This document shows positions 44,874 through 52,338 of a stretch of DNA of 64,000 nucleotides, one piece after another (within the stretch, counting starts at the first letter, position 1; each line of letters opens with the position of its first letter). The notes under the pieces are model-generated. The model worked only from the letters and a program-made list of their open reading frames with translations. It did not search any database and was not told the origin of the DNA. The stretch lies in assembly GCA_019454105.1 (NCBI GenBank), contig CP075364.1, forward strand, positions 2,235,362 to 2,299,361. The letters are read 5' to 3'. This DNA comes from Fimbriimonadaceae bacterium. GTDB lineage: Bacteria; Armatimonadota; Fimbriimonadia; Fimbriimonadales; Fimbriimonadaceae. Both the position numbers and the translations under genes were made by a program.

Positions 44874-45406
44874 CAAGCCAACAACCGCCTCACCGTCTCC
44901 TCGGCCAACTCGAAGTGCATCGCGTCCTCACGCGCGAACCCTGCCCCCCAGTACCATCCGTGCGCTTGAAAAAACGGACGGACGCGCAAAAGTCCCAGTT
45001 GGACCATTCCGTCCCCCATGACGTCCAACCGGCGGTCGAACGTCAAGTCGACCGCCGTGCCCCAACTATGGTTCGAAATTGTCTTGGCGGAACCGCGCAC
45101 AAGCCTCGCGCACAGCATCCCGGCCGTACCGACGGACGCGTAAGCCTCCGGGTCGGCCTTCCGAAAGGCCGTCATCACCTTGCGGAGCGAGTCGACGGCA
45201 ACGTCCAGTCCCGTGACCCTGAACGGGCCTACGTCCGCGGTCACGAGGCGCGACCGGAACGGGCCTGTCACAGGGCGACAATCCTCGCCATAATCACCGC
45301 GCGGCTCGCCGAGCAACGCGCGCAACGTCGACGGTCGACACGGGCTTAGGCCCGTGTTGTAAGAACCCTTTTTGGGAACCGGCACCAACGCCGCCATCGA
45401 GGTCAC
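44873..45406 (-). CDS. Endolysin, M15-family peptidase
   Basis: 177 residues from GTG overlapping the sigma-like stop (GTGA). SNHSWGTAVDLTF gives zinc ligands H113 and D120; EDAMHFEL gives H164: the VanY/Ply M15 motif set. Cleaves peptidoglycan cross-links for lysis. CGTAGATGG box 6 nt upstream of the GTG supports this start. Confidence 0.87.
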   Translation of the reverse strand: MTSMAALVPVPKKGSYNTGLSPCRPSTLRALLGEPRGDYGEDCRPVTGPFRSRLVTADVGPFRVTGLDVAVDSLRKVMTAFRKADPEAYASVGTAGMLCARLVRGSAKTISNHSWGTAVDLTFDRRLDVMGDGMVQLGLLRVRPFFQAHGWYWGAGFAREDAMHFELAEETVRRLLA

Positions 45407-46023
45407 AAACAACCATCTACGAGGAGGCGCGCGCAAGCCCGGACCGCGCGCAACATTGCTCCGTCCAGTTTGACCATTCGAGTTTTGCCGTCGGCAACCG
45501 CGTCAAAGTACAGGTTGGCGAACGCGGCAAAGCGCTCGAGATCGTCAATGCGAGGCGCATCCTCCAATGTAGCCCCGCTCGCGATCAAACGTTGCCGATA
45601 AGACTCCACCGCTCCGCACTGCGCCAAAATCCGATCAGGCGACATGAGGACGAGGTCGCGGCCTTGCACGGCCAGCAGGGCCGCAGAGCGGTCCGTCTCG
45701 AGCTCTAAGTCCAACGGCACCGCTTCGGACTCGATCCGCCTGGCCAAACGTTGCGGTCCTTCACGGCGAGCCAGCTCGATCAGCGCGCGCCTGACGCAAA
45801 TCTTTACATAGCTGGACACATTGGCCCCACGGTCGGGCCGCCACGAGCGGCAAGCCGCCACCACAGCGGCCAACGCCACCATGTGCCGGTCGTCTAGAGC
45901 CAGACGGCCGATCACGAAGTCGCGCGCCTCCAAGCGAGCGATCGACCAAAAACGAGCGACGAAACGCGCCTCGGCGTCACGATCGCCAGATTGCGCCCGC
46001 AAGGCCAAATCAACGTCCGACAC
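45403..46023 (-). CDS. Phage sigma-factor-like protein
   Basis: 206 residues from GTG (GGAG 6 nt upstream). RAQSGDRDAEARFVARFW, RLALDDRHMVALAAVV and RPDRGANVSSYVKICVRRALIE fit region 2 of sigma-70 factors (the last block is like the -10-binding helix, FxxYxxxxIRxxL). Region 4 is not evident in the C-terminal half. Placed just before the lysis and virion genes, so likely the late-gene regulator. Confidence 0.65.
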   Translation of the reverse strand: MSDVDLALRAQSGDRDAEARFVARFWSIARLEARDFVIGRLALDDRHMVALAAVVAACRSWRPDRGANVSSYVKICVRRALIELARREGPQRLARRIESEAVPLDLELETDRSAALLAVQGRDLVLMSPDRILAQCGAVESYRQRLIASGATLEDAPRIDDLERFAAFANLYFDAVADGKTRMVKLDGAMLRAVRACARLLVDGCL

Positions 46024-46291
46024 CGCGTTCTCCAAACGACAACACCTCAGCGACAAACCTGCCGGCCGGAGTGAGGCGGCCGGATTCTCCATCGACAAGG
46101 CCGAGGCCCGTCACAGTGCTCTTGACCGTCCGGGCCGACCCAGGAGGCGACTGCGTCGCCACGGCCTCTTCGAACGAGAATCCGGCCCACATGGCGCGGA
46201 CGACCAGTTCCACCGTCCTGCGCTCGCCGGCCGTGAGACGAAACGGTGGCGAGCGCAGGACGGTCTCCTCAGAGCCGCGCGACGGCGCCAT
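46010..46291 (-). CDS. Small winged-helix-like protein
   Basis: 93 residues. Helical LTAGERRTVELVVRAMWAG followed by VKSTVTGLGLVDGESGRLTP, which looks like the recognition helix and wing of a winged HTH (the LxxxGLVDxxxGRLTPxG pattern). Overlaps the sigma-like gene by 14 bp. Probably a regulator; not certain. Confidence 0.5.
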   Translation of the reverse strand: MAPSRGSEETVLRSPPFRLTAGERRTVELVVRAMWAGFSFEEAVATQSPPGSARTVKSTVTGLGLVDGESGRLTPAGRFVAEVLSFGERGVGR

Positions 46292-46293
46292 CG

Positions 46294-46734
46294 TCAGTCG
46301 AACGCCCCCTCAGCCCCAGCAGGCCGTTTGGAAAACGTCTTCTTGATCGCGGAATAAAGCTCTAAACCGGTCAGAGACCGGTGGCGGTCTACCAAGTCAG
46401 AGACCAAGCGCATCGTGCGAGGGTCGGCACGTAACGTCGCATGGACATCTTCATAGGCCTTACGGCTCAGGTCAGTCGCCGACCTCAACTGTTTCACAGT
46501 TTCCGCCAAAGGCGAACCGTCGAGTTCTAACGACCATTCGATCAAAGCGAGCCAGGCCTGCAAGCCTTCGGGCCAACGCCTGCTACGCGCCATCGACAAG
46601 AACCGCTTGATGTCCTTGGCGAACGGCCGCGCCTCGTCGAGGACCTCTACAGGCCCCCAAACGTCGAGCCTGTCCCCGCACAGCCGCGCCCGAAAGCCCT
46701 TTTCGACCAGCTCGCCAAGCGCCTCCGCCGTCAC
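46294..46734 (-). CDS. Hypothetical protein with TubC_N-like N-terminus
   Basis: 146 residues from GTG overlapping the primase stop. GELVEKGFRARLCGDRLDVW, GPVEVLDEARPFAKDIKRFL resembles the small TubC N-terminal domain common next to phage primases. The rest is helical. Function unknown; translationally coupled to the replication gene. Confidence 0.6.
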   Translation of the reverse strand: MTAEALGELVEKGFRARLCGDRLDVWGPVEVLDEARPFAKDIKRFLSMARSRRWPEGLQAWLALIEWSLELDGSPLAETVKQLRSATDLSRKAYEDVHATLRADPRTMRLVSDLVDRHRSLTGLELYSAIKKTFSKRPAGAEGAFD

Positions 46735-49475
46735 CAGACCTCCTCCGCCGTCGTGCCGGGTGAATCTCCCGTCAAGAGATTCACATGTGGTTTTGAACCT
46801 GAATCAATGCTTGGTGAATGTCGGTGAATCTCAGAAGCATCGTTGTCGCCATAAATAGGATCACCAAAGGGTGCCCCGCGCGCGTGCGCGAAGATCGGAC
46901 TAGATTCACAAAATTCACCGTCTACTAATCGGTCTGTATCTGTTCCAACCATGGTGAATGTACTAGTGAGTGTCTCTCTGTCTACCTGATCAGAACCAGG
47001 TTCGTCCGAACCTGGTGAATCTCCTGGTGAATATCGAGATAAGAGGCACTGCGCCGAATGATGGCCTCGGTCTTGGTTTGGTGCTGAGGGTGAATCTGGT
47101 GAATCTAGTCCGAGGTTTTCCAGGACGTAGGTCGAGGCCCGTTGTTTGGTGCCGACGACTATGACGCGCCGGCCGTCGAGGACGATCCCGACGCGCCGTC
47201 TTAGAGCCTTCCCGAACGCCACTTTCTGCGAACGCTCGCTCCCGTCTCCAAGCAGGTTCGCCAGAGCATCGATCGCTTTTGCGGTCTCAAAAAGGTCGGC
47301 CGCGGTCGTGCGCGACTCTCCGAACCGGTTGGACCACTCTTCGTAAAGCTGCGCCCATTCTTCGTCGCCTCCATGGCTGAGCGCCGTGCGCATCTCCTCA
47401 ATGTTATCGAGGAAACCATTGACGCCAGCGTGACAAAGTATGCCACCGATTGTTTTGGACCATTGCTCAAAGCTTCCTAGTTTCTTATCGATGAAGCCAG
47501 GTCGGCCGGCATCGCACCAGTTGTCGATTATGTGACAAAGTGCCGACACGAGGCGCGGCCGTTGAGAGGCGGCGTAAACCTCCAGCTCCTCGTGCCGAAA
47601 GCCCGTTCTGTCTTCTGGCCTTTCTGTCCGCGCGTCCAAACGGATCCAGACCGTCCGGCGGGCCAGGTCGCGCGACAATTCGGCGTTGTTGGCCGTCGCC
47701 GCCCAAACGCAACGGACCGGCACGTTGATGGCTCGCATCGCGCCTAGGGCGCGATCGTTCCACTCAGGGGCGGTGAGCGCCGCCGCGAGGCTGTCCGAGT
47801 CCAGCTTTCTGGACAAATTGTCTAAAAAAATCACTTGGCGGCCCTCGAGCAGCGCAGTGGCGATCTTTTTGCGCCACTCTTCCTCGTCCCTGGTCGCCGT
47901 CGTGGCGGCCGCCGCCGACCCCAGCGCGGGCCACAAGCACGCCCGCACCAAAAGGGACTTGCCGCTACCTTGGACGGGCGCGTCCACCAGGTGGAGAGGG
48001 GTCGGGCCAGCGATGACCGGCCTGACGAACGGCAACAGAGCGAGGGCTAGCGCGTGCGCCCGGTCGCTCATGCTGGCGAAAGGAAAATCGGCCAGGTAGT
48101 CGTCAAGGACGAACGCGACCGCCGATTCGAGGCTTCCGTCCCAATTGGCGAACGGGCCGTCGGTGACGTACGTTCGGCTCGACGCGTCGTATCCGACTGT
48201 CCGGTTTAACCGTCCTTCTCTGCCGAGAACAGGCACTCGGGAGACGATCGTCACCGGCGGCACGCCTGGCCACTTTGACAGACTGGCCAAATCCTGGACG
48301 ACCTCGGCCGGAGGTGCGCACGGCCGAGGGCCTTTCTCGCCGGTCCTGCGCCAGTCGGCGGCCCGCGCCAACGTTCCTCGCAACGCGGCTTCTCCGAGCG
48401 AGGCGATCCGTGCCGCTCCCCGTTCGTCGATCTCCACCCGCACGAGCTCTCCGGCACGCACGAAGACGCTCGGGAGATCGTTCTTCAACAACAGGGCATT
48501 CAGCGCGTCAGCGGTCACGTCGCGCATTTGGCGGTTGCCCGTCTCGATAGTCGGCAACCTGGCCAGCGGTTTCCCGTTCCTGTTGTCCAAAACGTCGGTC
48601 GGAGAACCATAACCCTTCTTGTGCAAATCTTTGGCCGCGGCCGCGTAGTCGCCGCCGTGCCAGATCCACGCGTAAAGCGCGAACTTGGTCAACAGACAGT
48701 TCGCTGGCACGCCGGCCGTCGTGCTCCAGCAATAGAACCGGTCGCCTGCCGAGCCTGGACCGGTCCGCGCAGAGACGCCGTCGGACACCGCCTTGCCAGG
48801 CCTCGTCCACAAGCGCCAGTCGCTTCGCCGAGAATGCAGCTTCCAGCCTGCCGGCTCCAGGATCTCGGCCCAGTCGATGGCCGCCTCGAACTCGTCGCCG
48901 GGCCGGGCCCCTCCCACGGGACGGTGGGAGTCTCGTGGAGAGTCGTCGACCTGCTGTTGGCGCGGCACTTGGCGGACAGAGAGCGCCGCTCCAGGCACCG
49001 AGCAGCTCCAAGAAGAACCGCCAAGAGGCCGGCTGGGCAAATAGTACATTCTGGCGGGATCGCGGTGCTCTTCGGCCAGGCCGTGACCCAGGTAGAGCGT
49101 CGCCGCCGAGCAAAACTCGCCCCACCCCTCGCGGGGATGCTCGATCGCGAGGGGAAAGACAGCGCGCCAACGCGGCGACCTCGGTGCGTGCCGCCAGGTC
49201 GTGTGGCACGCGAACGCGAGCCCAAGGCCCGTCCAGTGCCCGACGAGATCGTCCCAATCATGACCGCCGTCGAAATCCAGGCACACGGCTGAGACCGCTA
49301 TGACGTTTTCGTTGGCGCGGCGGGCCCCCTCCGCGTACACGGCGGGCGACCAGAGCGGACCGTCCTTCTCAGAACGTTCGGAGAACGAGGTGAGCCAGTT
49401 CGCCAGGGCCTCCCATGAGAGTTCCTCCCCTTTTGGCCTGGTGTCCGTCTTCGACCTGAACCTACTGATCCGCAT
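46731..49475 (-). CDS. Primase-polymerase / helicase replication protein
   Basis: 914 residues. Residues ~60-150 are AEP primase-like: VCLDFDGG (acidic DxD, 67-69), HTTWRHAPRSPRWRAVFPL and ARMYYLPSRP. An SF3-type helicase follows: P-loop APVQGSGKSL (499-508), VIFLDNLSR Walker B and the AATANNAEL sensor. Residues ~790-914 are low-complexity with several DSP motifs, encoded by the iteron region. The start at 49,475 overlaps the upstream nuclease gene by 14 bp; the longer frame upstream is a shadow. Confidence 0.87.
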   Translation of the reverse strand: MRISRFRSKTDTRPKGEELSWEALANWLTSFSERSEKDGPLWSPAVYAEGARRANENVIAVSAVCLDFDGGHDWDDLVGHWTGLGLAFACHTTWRHAPRSPRWRAVFPLAIEHPREGWGEFCSAATLYLGHGLAEEHRDPARMYYLPSRPLGGSSWSCSVPGAALSVRQVPRQQQVDDSPRDSHRPVGGARPGDEFEAAIDWAEILEPAGWKLHSRRSDWRLWTRPGKAVSDGVSARTGPGSAGDRFYCWSTTAGVPANCLLTKFALYAWIWHGGDYAAAAKDLHKKGYGSPTDVLDNRNGKPLARLPTIETGNRQMRDVTADALNALLLKNDLPSVFVRAGELVRVEIDERGAARIASLGEAALRGTLARAADWRRTGEKGPRPCAPPAEVVQDLASLSKWPGVPPVTIVSRVPVLGREGRLNRTVGYDASSRTYVTDGPFANWDGSLESAVAFVLDDYLADFPFASMSDRAHALALALLPFVRPVIAGPTPLHLVDAPVQGSGKSLLVRACLWPALGSAAAATTATRDEEEWRKKIATALLEGRQVIFLDNLSRKLDSDSLAAALTAPEWNDRALGAMRAINVPVRCVWAATANNAELSRDLARRTVWIRLDARTERPEDRTGFRHEELEVYAASQRPRLVSALCHIIDNWCDAGRPGFIDKKLGSFEQWSKTIGGILCHAGVNGFLDNIEEMRTALSHGGDEEWAQLYEEWSNRFGESRTTAADLFETAKAIDALANLLGDGSERSQKVAFGKALRRRVGIVLDGRRVIVVGTKQRASTYVLENLGLDSPDSPSAPNQDRGHHSAQCLLSRYSPGDSPGSDEPGSDQVDRETLTSTFTMVGTDTDRLVDGEFCESSPIFAHARGAPFGDPIYGDNDASEIHRHSPSIDSGSKPHVNLLTGDSPGTTAEEVW
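46759..47106. repeat. GGTGAAT iterons, putative prophage replication origin
   Basis: Eight direct GGTGAAT copies on the plus strand: 46759, 46813, 46823, 46953, 47014, 47026, 47089 and 47098; five are GGTGAATCT. Three inverted copies (AGATTCACA at 46777 and 46902, AATTCACC at 46912) lie between. The stretch is more AT-rich than its surroundings and sits in the disordered tail of the primase-helicase gene. Iterons inside the initiator gene are a known origin layout (lambda O). Confidence 0.7.
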
Positions 49476-51569: not shown

Positions 51570-51598
51570 AGTATAACGGCGGGCTGTAATTTTGTCAA
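51570..51598 (-). promoter_or_regulatory. Leftward early promoter (PL-like)
   Basis: Minus strand: TTGACA (51,593-51,598), 17-bp spacer, TATACT (51,570-51,575). The ATG at 51,563 begins 6 nt after the -10, so transcription should start at or next to the A of the start codon. Confidence 0.8.
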
Positions 51599-51601
51599 GA
51601 C
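51583..51601 (-). promoter_or_regulatory. 19-bp early-promoter box (putative operator), left copy
   Basis: GTCTTGACAAAATTACAGC, identical to 53,675-53,693. It covers the -35 of the leftward promoter and lies 24 bp before the CI-like start, so a bound repressor would block leftward transcription and could control its own gene. Not palindromic by eye. Confidence 0.6.
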
Positions 51602-51624
51602 TGTGCCACAATGAATTTGAAAAA

Positions 51625-52338
51625 ATGCTCCTCGTGCCGACCGGGGACATCGGACGCCGCGTGCGCCAAGTCAGGCTTTCGGTCAAGCCTGTCGCTCCGA
51701 AACAACAATGGCTCGCCGAGCAGCTCGGCGTGTCGCAGGCGGTCGTCTCGAACTGGGAGCGCGGCCGCCACGACCCGTCTCCTCACCACGTGTCTAAGAT
51801 CGCGCAGGTGCTGGGCGTCGATCCCGGCTTCTTGACGGGTGGATCGACGGTGCGCGCGACGCTTGGGTCGCCGACGATCCCCGTCGGGTTTCCTATGGCC
51901 AGGATCAGGCACGCCGGGACCGTGCCGGCCGGCGACTGGGGCGACCCGCTCGCCTCCGAAGACTTCGTCGAGGTCGACGTCAGGTTCGACCACCCTCGCC
52001 GTTTCGCCGCGACGGTGGTCGGGGACTCTTGCTGGCCGGCGCTTCGGCAGGGCGACCTAACCGTCTGGCACTCAGATCCGGCCCCGCCGTACAACCTGAT
52101 CGTCCTGGCCCAACGGACGGCAGACCAAGCGTGCACCGTGAAAGAGCTCGTCTGGGACCCGGCGGCCAATCGGCCCGTGCTCGTGCCGGTGAACCCGGCC
52201 TATGGCCAGACCGATGATGGCGATGGATGGGCCGTGATAGCCAGACTCGTGGCGGTGGTGCGGCGACAGGACGGCGTCGAGCAGACTTGGTACTCGCCCG
52301 AAGGGCTCAGAGTGAAGTACCTCGCAGGGGCCGAATGA
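51625..52338 (+). CDS. CI/LexA-like prophage repressor
   Basis: 237 residues from the ATG at MLLVPTGDIG. HTH_XRE: WLAEQLGVSQAVVSNWERG (29-47). S24 peptidase domain: cleavage-type pair Ala97-Gly98 (HAGTV), nucleophile Ser135 in GDSCWPAL, Lys173 in TVKELV (38 residues apart, as in LexA). RecA-stimulated self-cleavage would induce the prophage. First gene of a three-gene operon with ATGA overlaps. Confidence 0.88.
   Translation: MLLVPTGDIGRRVRQVRLSVKPVAPKQQWLAEQLGVSQAVVSNWERGRHDPSPHHVSKIAQVLGVDPGFLTGGSTVRATLGSPTIPVGFPMARIRHAGTVPAGDWGDPLASEDFVEVDVRFDHPRRFAATVVGDSCWPALRQGDLTVWHSDPAPPYNLIVLAQRTADQACTVKELVWDPAANRPVLVPVNPAYGQTDDGDGWAVIARLVAVVRRQDGVEQTWYSPEGLRVKYLAGAE

Follow-up and report, generated by a model that had tools for sequence, protein, structure and literature searches.

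Why is the 3' end of a prophage primase-helicase gene crowded with copies of one short repeat, and is this sequence kept for the DNA or for the protein it encodes? The locus lies in the window (the whole stretch of 64,000 nucleotides of Fimbriimonadaceae DNA that was analysed), and a preliminary description had proposed an iteron origin hidden in the disordered tail of the primase-helicase. We consider it very likely that the array is the prophage's self-encoded replication origin, located inside the initiator gene and read by the DNA-binding domain of that gene's product; that this prophage replicates from it is so far an inference.

The iteron array and the coding tail

The array and the genes around it had the following arrangement:

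46731..49475, minus strand: primase-helicase gene (initiator), 914 aa from the likely ATG, with a D5-type helicase, a C-terminal winged helix and a disordered tail
46734..47111, minus strand: disordered coding tail (residues 789-914, pLDDT ~31), with the whole iteron array inside; the only open frame of the three of its strand
46738..46746, minus strand: Shine-Dalgarno GGAGGAGGT of the next gene, within the last codons of the tail (from the sequence)
46294..46734, minus strand: next gene, 146 aa, function unknown; its GTG start overlaps the primase stop (GTGA)
47099..47106, plus strand: iteron GTGAATCT (repeat search)
47090..47097, plus strand: iteron GTGAATCT, 9-bp pair with 47099
47027..47034, plus strand: iteron GTGAATAT (repeat search)
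47015..47022, plus strand: iteron GTGAATCT, 12-bp pair with 47027
46954..46961, plus strand: iteron GTGAATGT (repeat search)
46911..46918, minus strand: inverted iteron GTGAATTT, preceded by G, convergent pair
46902..46909, minus strand: inverted iteron GTGAATCT, preceded by T, 9-bp pair with 46911
46832..46901, no strand: core of 70 bp between both convergent iteron pairs, containing CGCGCGCGTGCGCG (46877-46890) and CATAAATAGG (46850-46859)
46824..46831, plus strand: iteron GTGAATCT, convergent pair
46814..46821, plus strand: iteron GTGAATGT, 10-bp pair with 46824
46777..46784, minus strand: inverted iteron GTGAATCT, preceded by T
46760..46767, plus strand: iteron GTGAATCT (repeat search)

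Eleven copies of GTGAAT were found between 46759 and 47106 (approximately 0.03 expected by chance in 346 bp, as estimated from shuffles), all of them within the coding tail. Eight were direct copies of GGTGAAT (at 46759, 46813, 46823, 46953, 47014, 47026, 47089 and 47098) and a single one was an exact inverted copy (46913). The preliminary description had counted eight direct and three inverted GGTGAAT; the direct copies and one inverted copy agreed with this count, but the remaining two inverted ones read TGTGAATC (with GTGAAT at 46779 and 46904). Elsewhere in the window GGTGAAT occurred once (60230), and pairs of this word no more than 30 nt apart were restricted to the array when the whole 2.74-Mb genome was scanned. 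The array region is a local GC minimum (51.7% vs. 63.8% for the window). The following criteria were fulfilled: an iteron array directly at the 3' end of the gene and the only one in the element; convergent iteron groups flanking a core (two pairs and a 70-bp core in the window); and the lambda-type criterion of iterons within the initiator coding sequence. The array, its position and its architecture are direct observations.

Two other features of the region were recorded. A second repeated word, TTTTGAACCTG, is present within the array (46791-46801; five copies in total in the genome), is also repeated in the relative L010, and is a possible second site. The core contains an alternating CG/CA tract (46877-46890) which is also present in most of the clade with embedded arrays, where it is flanked by runs of T and A; Z-DNA or a hairpin is possible.

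The tail frame was observed to be open over 126 codons (chance 0.3-1.8%), and the two alternative frames of the same strand contain several stops each. Because of this open frame, the stops in the other frames and the stop/start overlap (GTGA) behind a strong Shine-Dalgarno, the tail is, as far as the sequence can tell, very probably translated. The repeated DSP of the tail had been explained as the translation of the repeat, which applies to six of the eight direct copies; the others lie in the two other frames. Further along the prophage, a gene on the minus strand (45403-46098) gave a weak match to sigma-70 region 2 (E=0.002, below the cut-off).

The primase-helicase and its winged helix

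The window protein matched PHROG 10537 (E=4e-71) and PHROG 19930 (E=3e-42), both phage DNA primase/helicase proteins, and its N-terminal half matched PHROG 9765, a DNA primase (E=4e-13), in a region where the AF2 model is poor. No Pfam family was matched at E<=0.01, so there was no D5_N, Pox_D5 or DUF5906 signature, and a sequence search against solved structures gave no convincing relative. The criterion of a D5-like AAA+ helicase fold was fulfilled: the top Foldseek and VIA matches were poxvirus D5/E5, AsfvPrimPol and SaPI5 PriRep1 (Z 13-14), the AF2 model being closest to SaPI5 PriRep1 (7ola_C; Z 13.9, 370 residues aligned, rmsd 6.4). By its modelled fold and its inferred working, the window protein is a D5-type primase-helicase outside the D5_N/Pox_D5/DUF5906 Pfam families, with primase activity inferred. 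The Walker A lysine is kept in the window protein (GSGKS, residues ~503-507) and missing in many relatives (GTGAT, GTGAS; L056, L009, L014, L015 and others).

Upstream of the tail, the AF2 models place a putative DNA-binding domain:

47112..47363, minus strand: C-terminal winged-helix domain, residues ~705-788, inferred iteron reader (AF2 wHTH model; the five specificity columns map here)
47199..47237, minus strand: predicted recognition helix, residues 747-759, with R748, V752 and K756 (alignment columns 446, 450 and 454; AF2 models)
47115..47171, minus strand: predicted beta wing, residues 769-787, with Q778 and A780 (columns 480 and 482) at the turn (AF2 models)

Folded alone, the winged helix reached a pLDDT of 86.7 with the same residue placement as in the full model. 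In the model, R748, V752 and K756 are spaced four apart on one face of the helix, and Q778 and A780 lie at the turn (wing tip) of the following hairpin. A fold search with the isolated domain gave generic winged-helix matches only (Z <7; MecI, Fur and Orc1/Cdc6 included), and the P4 origin-binding domain was not among the matches listed. The criterion of a C-terminal winged helix recognising the origin was fulfilled by the wHTH model and the covariation between residues and iterons described below, without binding data.

Position and architecture of the array in related viruses

About 90 related viruses were compared by alignment-based family scans (63, 80 and 80 viral loci, in overlapping sets). 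Using the GGTGAAT 7-mer itself as a diagnostic was rejected: a scan of viral contigs (three copies, 30-nt gaps) returned mostly collagen-like and 7-bp tandem repeats, not origins. Most temperate relatives had an array of 7-14 copies at the 3' end of the corresponding gene, the iteron being particular to each relative, and no such array was found in the virulent large relatives (Caulobacter phages and others). The preliminary description had suggested comparing relatives for conserved iterons; position and architecture turned out to be kept, but not the iteron sequence. Nearly all iterons fit the register G1-N2-G3-N4-N5-N6-N7-T8 (for instance GTGAATCT in the window, GTGAGGTT in L001, GCGGGTAT in L014 and GGGAACCT in L230), those of L026 and L030 not cleanly. 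Natural iterons of the relatives also include GTGAACCT, GGGAACCT and GGGGACCT, with matching domains from L227, L230 and L231.

The copies of most arrays were spaced 9-10 bp apart, in groups of two or three, convergent across a core. Core length was 53-74 bp in the relatives and 53-65 bp in nearly all embedded ones: 56 bp in 38 cases, 62 bp in 19, and 53, 59 or 65 bp in seven more. Core lengths in the reading frame differ mostly by steps of three; the window core has 70 bp. An overlapping downstream frame of at least 40 aa was found in 65 of 84 loci.

The embedded set comprised 70 non-redundant loci, including the window, with at least 80% of the copies inside the coding sequence. The array was downstream of the stop in L014, L026, L041 and L048 and straddled it in L001. 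Since L026, the nearest homologue of the window protein (51%), has its array outside the gene, the embedding in the window probably arose independently, as inferred from these sequences. Embedding also seems to have arisen more than once in general, judging by the outside array of L026, by L152/L291 and L292-L294, which are embedded outside the main clade, and by L095, which belongs to another family. In this last case (L095:4380-6782) a D5_N/Pox_D5 primase-helicase of a different family has a GGTGAAT-type array in its coding tail. The L010 protein (L010:5968-8355, a Chthonomonas MAG) has the N-terminal primase half in common with the window protein (38%), fused to a D5_N helicase, and its gene is followed at the 3' side by its own GGGTGATTT repeats, interspersed with the TTTTGAACCTG repeats.

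One family member has been characterised experimentally: RepA of plasmid pWTY27 (tblastn E=9e-38 with L056). In this plasmid, repAB and the adjacent iterons form the basic replication locus, and replication is bidirectional (PMC3583192). RepA binds the iterons in vitro, with DNase I protection at 405-447 and 462-509 (PMC3583192). These footprints correspond to 174-216 and 112-159 bp after the repA stop (621) and cover both convergent iteron pairs (118/127 and 200/209 after the stop), in a layout as in the window. Binding to convergent iterons, and the need of the iteron region for replication, have been shown by others in this homologue only.

Concerted switching of iterons and a five-residue code

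An alignment of ten relatives showed some 12 iterons at identical positions and with identical flanks, while all the copies carried a new word. The switched words were TGTGAACCT, GGGGAATGT, GGGGGCCT, GGGGAACCT and GGGGACCT, and two were mixed at position 7. In total, 18 iteron types and about 29 switches were counted in 67 loci.

Covariation between iteron letters and protein columns was analysed in 39 representatives and then in 67 loci and 486 columns. In the representatives, three letters tracked a residue without exception. Letter 2 was G where residue 480 was H, and T in all other cases; letter 4 was A where residue 482 was A, G where it was S, T or V, and T where it was L; letter 5 was A where residue 446 was R or K, and G where it was H, Q or N. 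Letter 6 tracked residue 450, T going with the letter C and I or V with the alternative, and letter 7 tracked residue 454, being mostly G or A where this residue was K, R or L. In the 67 loci, columns 480, 482, 446, 450 and 454 ranked first of the 486 for letters 2, 4, 5, 6 and 7, respectively. Because related sequences are not independent, switches rather than counts matter: 10, 9, 7, 10 and 12 switches of these letters were inferred from a helicase-only tree from which the winged helix was left out. The covariation itself is an observation.

Prediction rules were fixed before the last scan, which supplied new loci to try them on. Thirteen of these had arrays of at least five copies, and 60 of their 63 letters were predicted correctly, including GGGGACGT, a combination missing from the training set. 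One of the 13 (L291) is the same virus as the previously examined L152, and several share a clade, so they are only partly independent. Adding the window, L048 and L028, which were examined before the rules were fixed and lie outside the training set, gave 74 correct letters of 78 (shuffled mean 47, maximum 63); once repeated combinations were removed, 54 of 58 were correct vs. a shuffled maximum of 47. For the window, four of the five letters were predicted, position 7 being the failure (mostly C; K756 predicts G or A). The code partly fails in distant relatives (2/5 in L001, 3/5 in L296). Whether the concerted change occurred by gene conversion or stepwise, through a tolerant residue such as K454, remains open.

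Selection on the coding tail

Since no close relative turned up for the tail of the window itself, selection was tested on the tails of relatives. Among close relatives, the helicase substitutions were distributed over codon positions 1, 2 and 3 as 12/6/82%; for the tail, in pairs of close relatives with the same iteron, the distribution was 31/34/35%, and tail third positions changed less than half as often as helicase third positions. This lack of codon-level selection in the relatives was observed directly. Iterons changed at 0.041 per base vs. 0.150 in the rest of the tail (3.7-fold slower). The tail frame was open in 69 of 69 loci, the other frames averaging 1.7 and 5.0 stops, and 61 of 76 tail indels were multiples of three. 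The loci had been selected for an array in frame, so the open frame partly reflects how they were chosen, which does not apply to the lack of codon bias.

The final eight codons behaved differently, with a third-position bias (20/13/67% by codon position in L056 and its clade) and tips such as WLDGVP, DWLKELDP and PDWLKEVL. On this comparative evidence, the extreme C-terminal tip is protein-constrained in the relatives, so that the tail is not DNA only, and the gene layout there is a putative succession of winged helix, DNA-constrained linker and conserved tip. The earlier suggestion that the tail is shaped by a DNA function rather than a protein one is consequently upheld for the lack of codon-level constraint, but not for the tip. 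For the tail of the window, precedence of DNA over protein may be assumed by analogy with the relatives and from its use of frames.

Proposed mechanism and alternative explanations

In the proposed mechanism, the C-terminal winged helix of the D5-type primase-helicase would read each iteron, three residues of the recognition helix pairing with letters 5, 6 and 7 and two wing residues with letters 2 and 4. If the analogy with SaPI and P4 holds, hexamers would form on both convergent groups of iterons and open the core, where bidirectional replication would start. The tail would be translated as a disordered linker whose amino-acid sequence merely follows from the DNA sites, and its frame would have to remain free of stops so that the C-terminal tip and the overlapping next gene can be reached. 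That the origin fires in this prophage, that hexamers load and that they open the core are inferences; there are no replication or binding data for this prophage.

The repeats might instead be a feature of the protein, a DSP-rich low-complexity tail selected as such with the DNA repeat as by-product. Six of the eight direct copies do share one frame and the tip is protein-constrained in relatives, but copies occur in three frames and both orientations, the tails of relatives lack codon-position bias, other relatives have the same arrays outside the gene, and the letters of the repeat covary with residues of the winged helix, which lies upstream of the tail. A protein-level repeat was rejected as already contradicted in the relatives, and for the window we find this explanation hardly tenable. 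Marginally less implausible, though still very improbable, is a site for another DNA-binding protein (a phage repressor, a partition protein or a host factor). The window also encodes a CI-type repressor (51592-52338), and iteron-like arrays serve partition in some plasmids. However, the initiator columns that covary best are its own predicted DNA-reading residues, and the homologue RepA binds its sites in vitro (PMC3583192); on these two grounds a site for an unrelated protein was rejected.

An array bound by the same protein, but used for autoregulation or copy control or as an accessory site similar to P4 crr, with the true origin elsewhere, is unlikely but deserves more weight. The repeats of P4 occur both in an origin and in crr, 4.5 kb apart, and the iterons of the window lie within the transcribed part of the operon. 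Against this, no second array was found in the genome, the minimal replicon of pWTY27 needs repAB and the iteron region and replicates bidirectionally (PMC3583192), and SaPI origins lie at the same place (PMC7581432). The preferred reading remains the iteron origin of the preliminary description, which gained support by comparison (arrays at the same place in relatives, winged-helix covariation and the pWTY27 footprints), replication here being inferred.

A more general proposal is offered only tentatively, with doubt slightly outweighing confidence: that these are self-encoded origins with modular, evolvable specificity, in which some 12 sites, fixed in position within the initiator's reading frame, switch letters jointly as single residues of a five-residue code change. 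Reader and sites would be kept together because they form one gene, changes would be driven by escape from interference between related replicons, and the origin would double as a translated disordered linker to the conserved C-terminal tip. With origin and reader in one gene, an apparent base-by-base code can be read from the sequence and is testable with natural proteins and sites. The family gives a tractable natural system for following how the specificity between a protein and its many DNA sites can switch, and an example of coding sequence maintained for its role as DNA, and it offers a route to origins in unannotated prophages, by inspecting the 3' end of the primase-helicase gene.

Comparison with known systems

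P4 crr, the SaPI ori and the lambda ori in O are of kinds already known. The literature searched described no origin within the tail-coding part of a primase-helicase gene, no concerted switching of such an origin at fixed sites and no five-residue code, an absence which is no proof of novelty. Like the window, pWTY27 has convergent iteron pairs 3' of repA and a core of ~64 bp; unlike the window, its array is outside the gene and its primase is encoded by a separate gene. Its authors proposed recognition of a stem-loop (PMC3583192), unlike the helix/wing code described here.

P4 shares with the window an alpha primase-helicase with a C-terminal DNA-binding domain, and has type I iterons in crr and ori. 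Its crr is directly 3' of alpha, with 9-bp-phased convergent GTGAACA repeats in the register G-N-G-N-N-N-N, as in the window. In contrast, the P4 array is outside the gene, a second origin region is 4.5 kb from crr, and alpha has Pfam matches to D5_N, Pox_D5 and DUF5906, of which the window protein has none.

In SaPI and SCCmec (Cch2) the origin is directly downstream of the D5-type helicase gene and its iterons are read by the C-terminal domain; two hexamers have been proposed at these origins (PMC7581432). SaPI Rep/PriRep1 has the closest fold to the window protein and an origin at the 3' end of the gene, but the SaPI/SCCmec array is downstream of the gene, not inside it, and the iterons are different.

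Lambda O is not a helicase and belongs to a different family. The lambda ori has iterons inside the initiator gene O, where additional iterons mean additional residues (PMC7466680). It resembles the window in having iterons within the initiator coding sequence, and differs in that these lie in the middle of O with an AT-rich tract, without a convergent array in a C-terminal tail. The conserved tip after an unconstrained linker, in turn, resembles the layout of SSB or lambda O.
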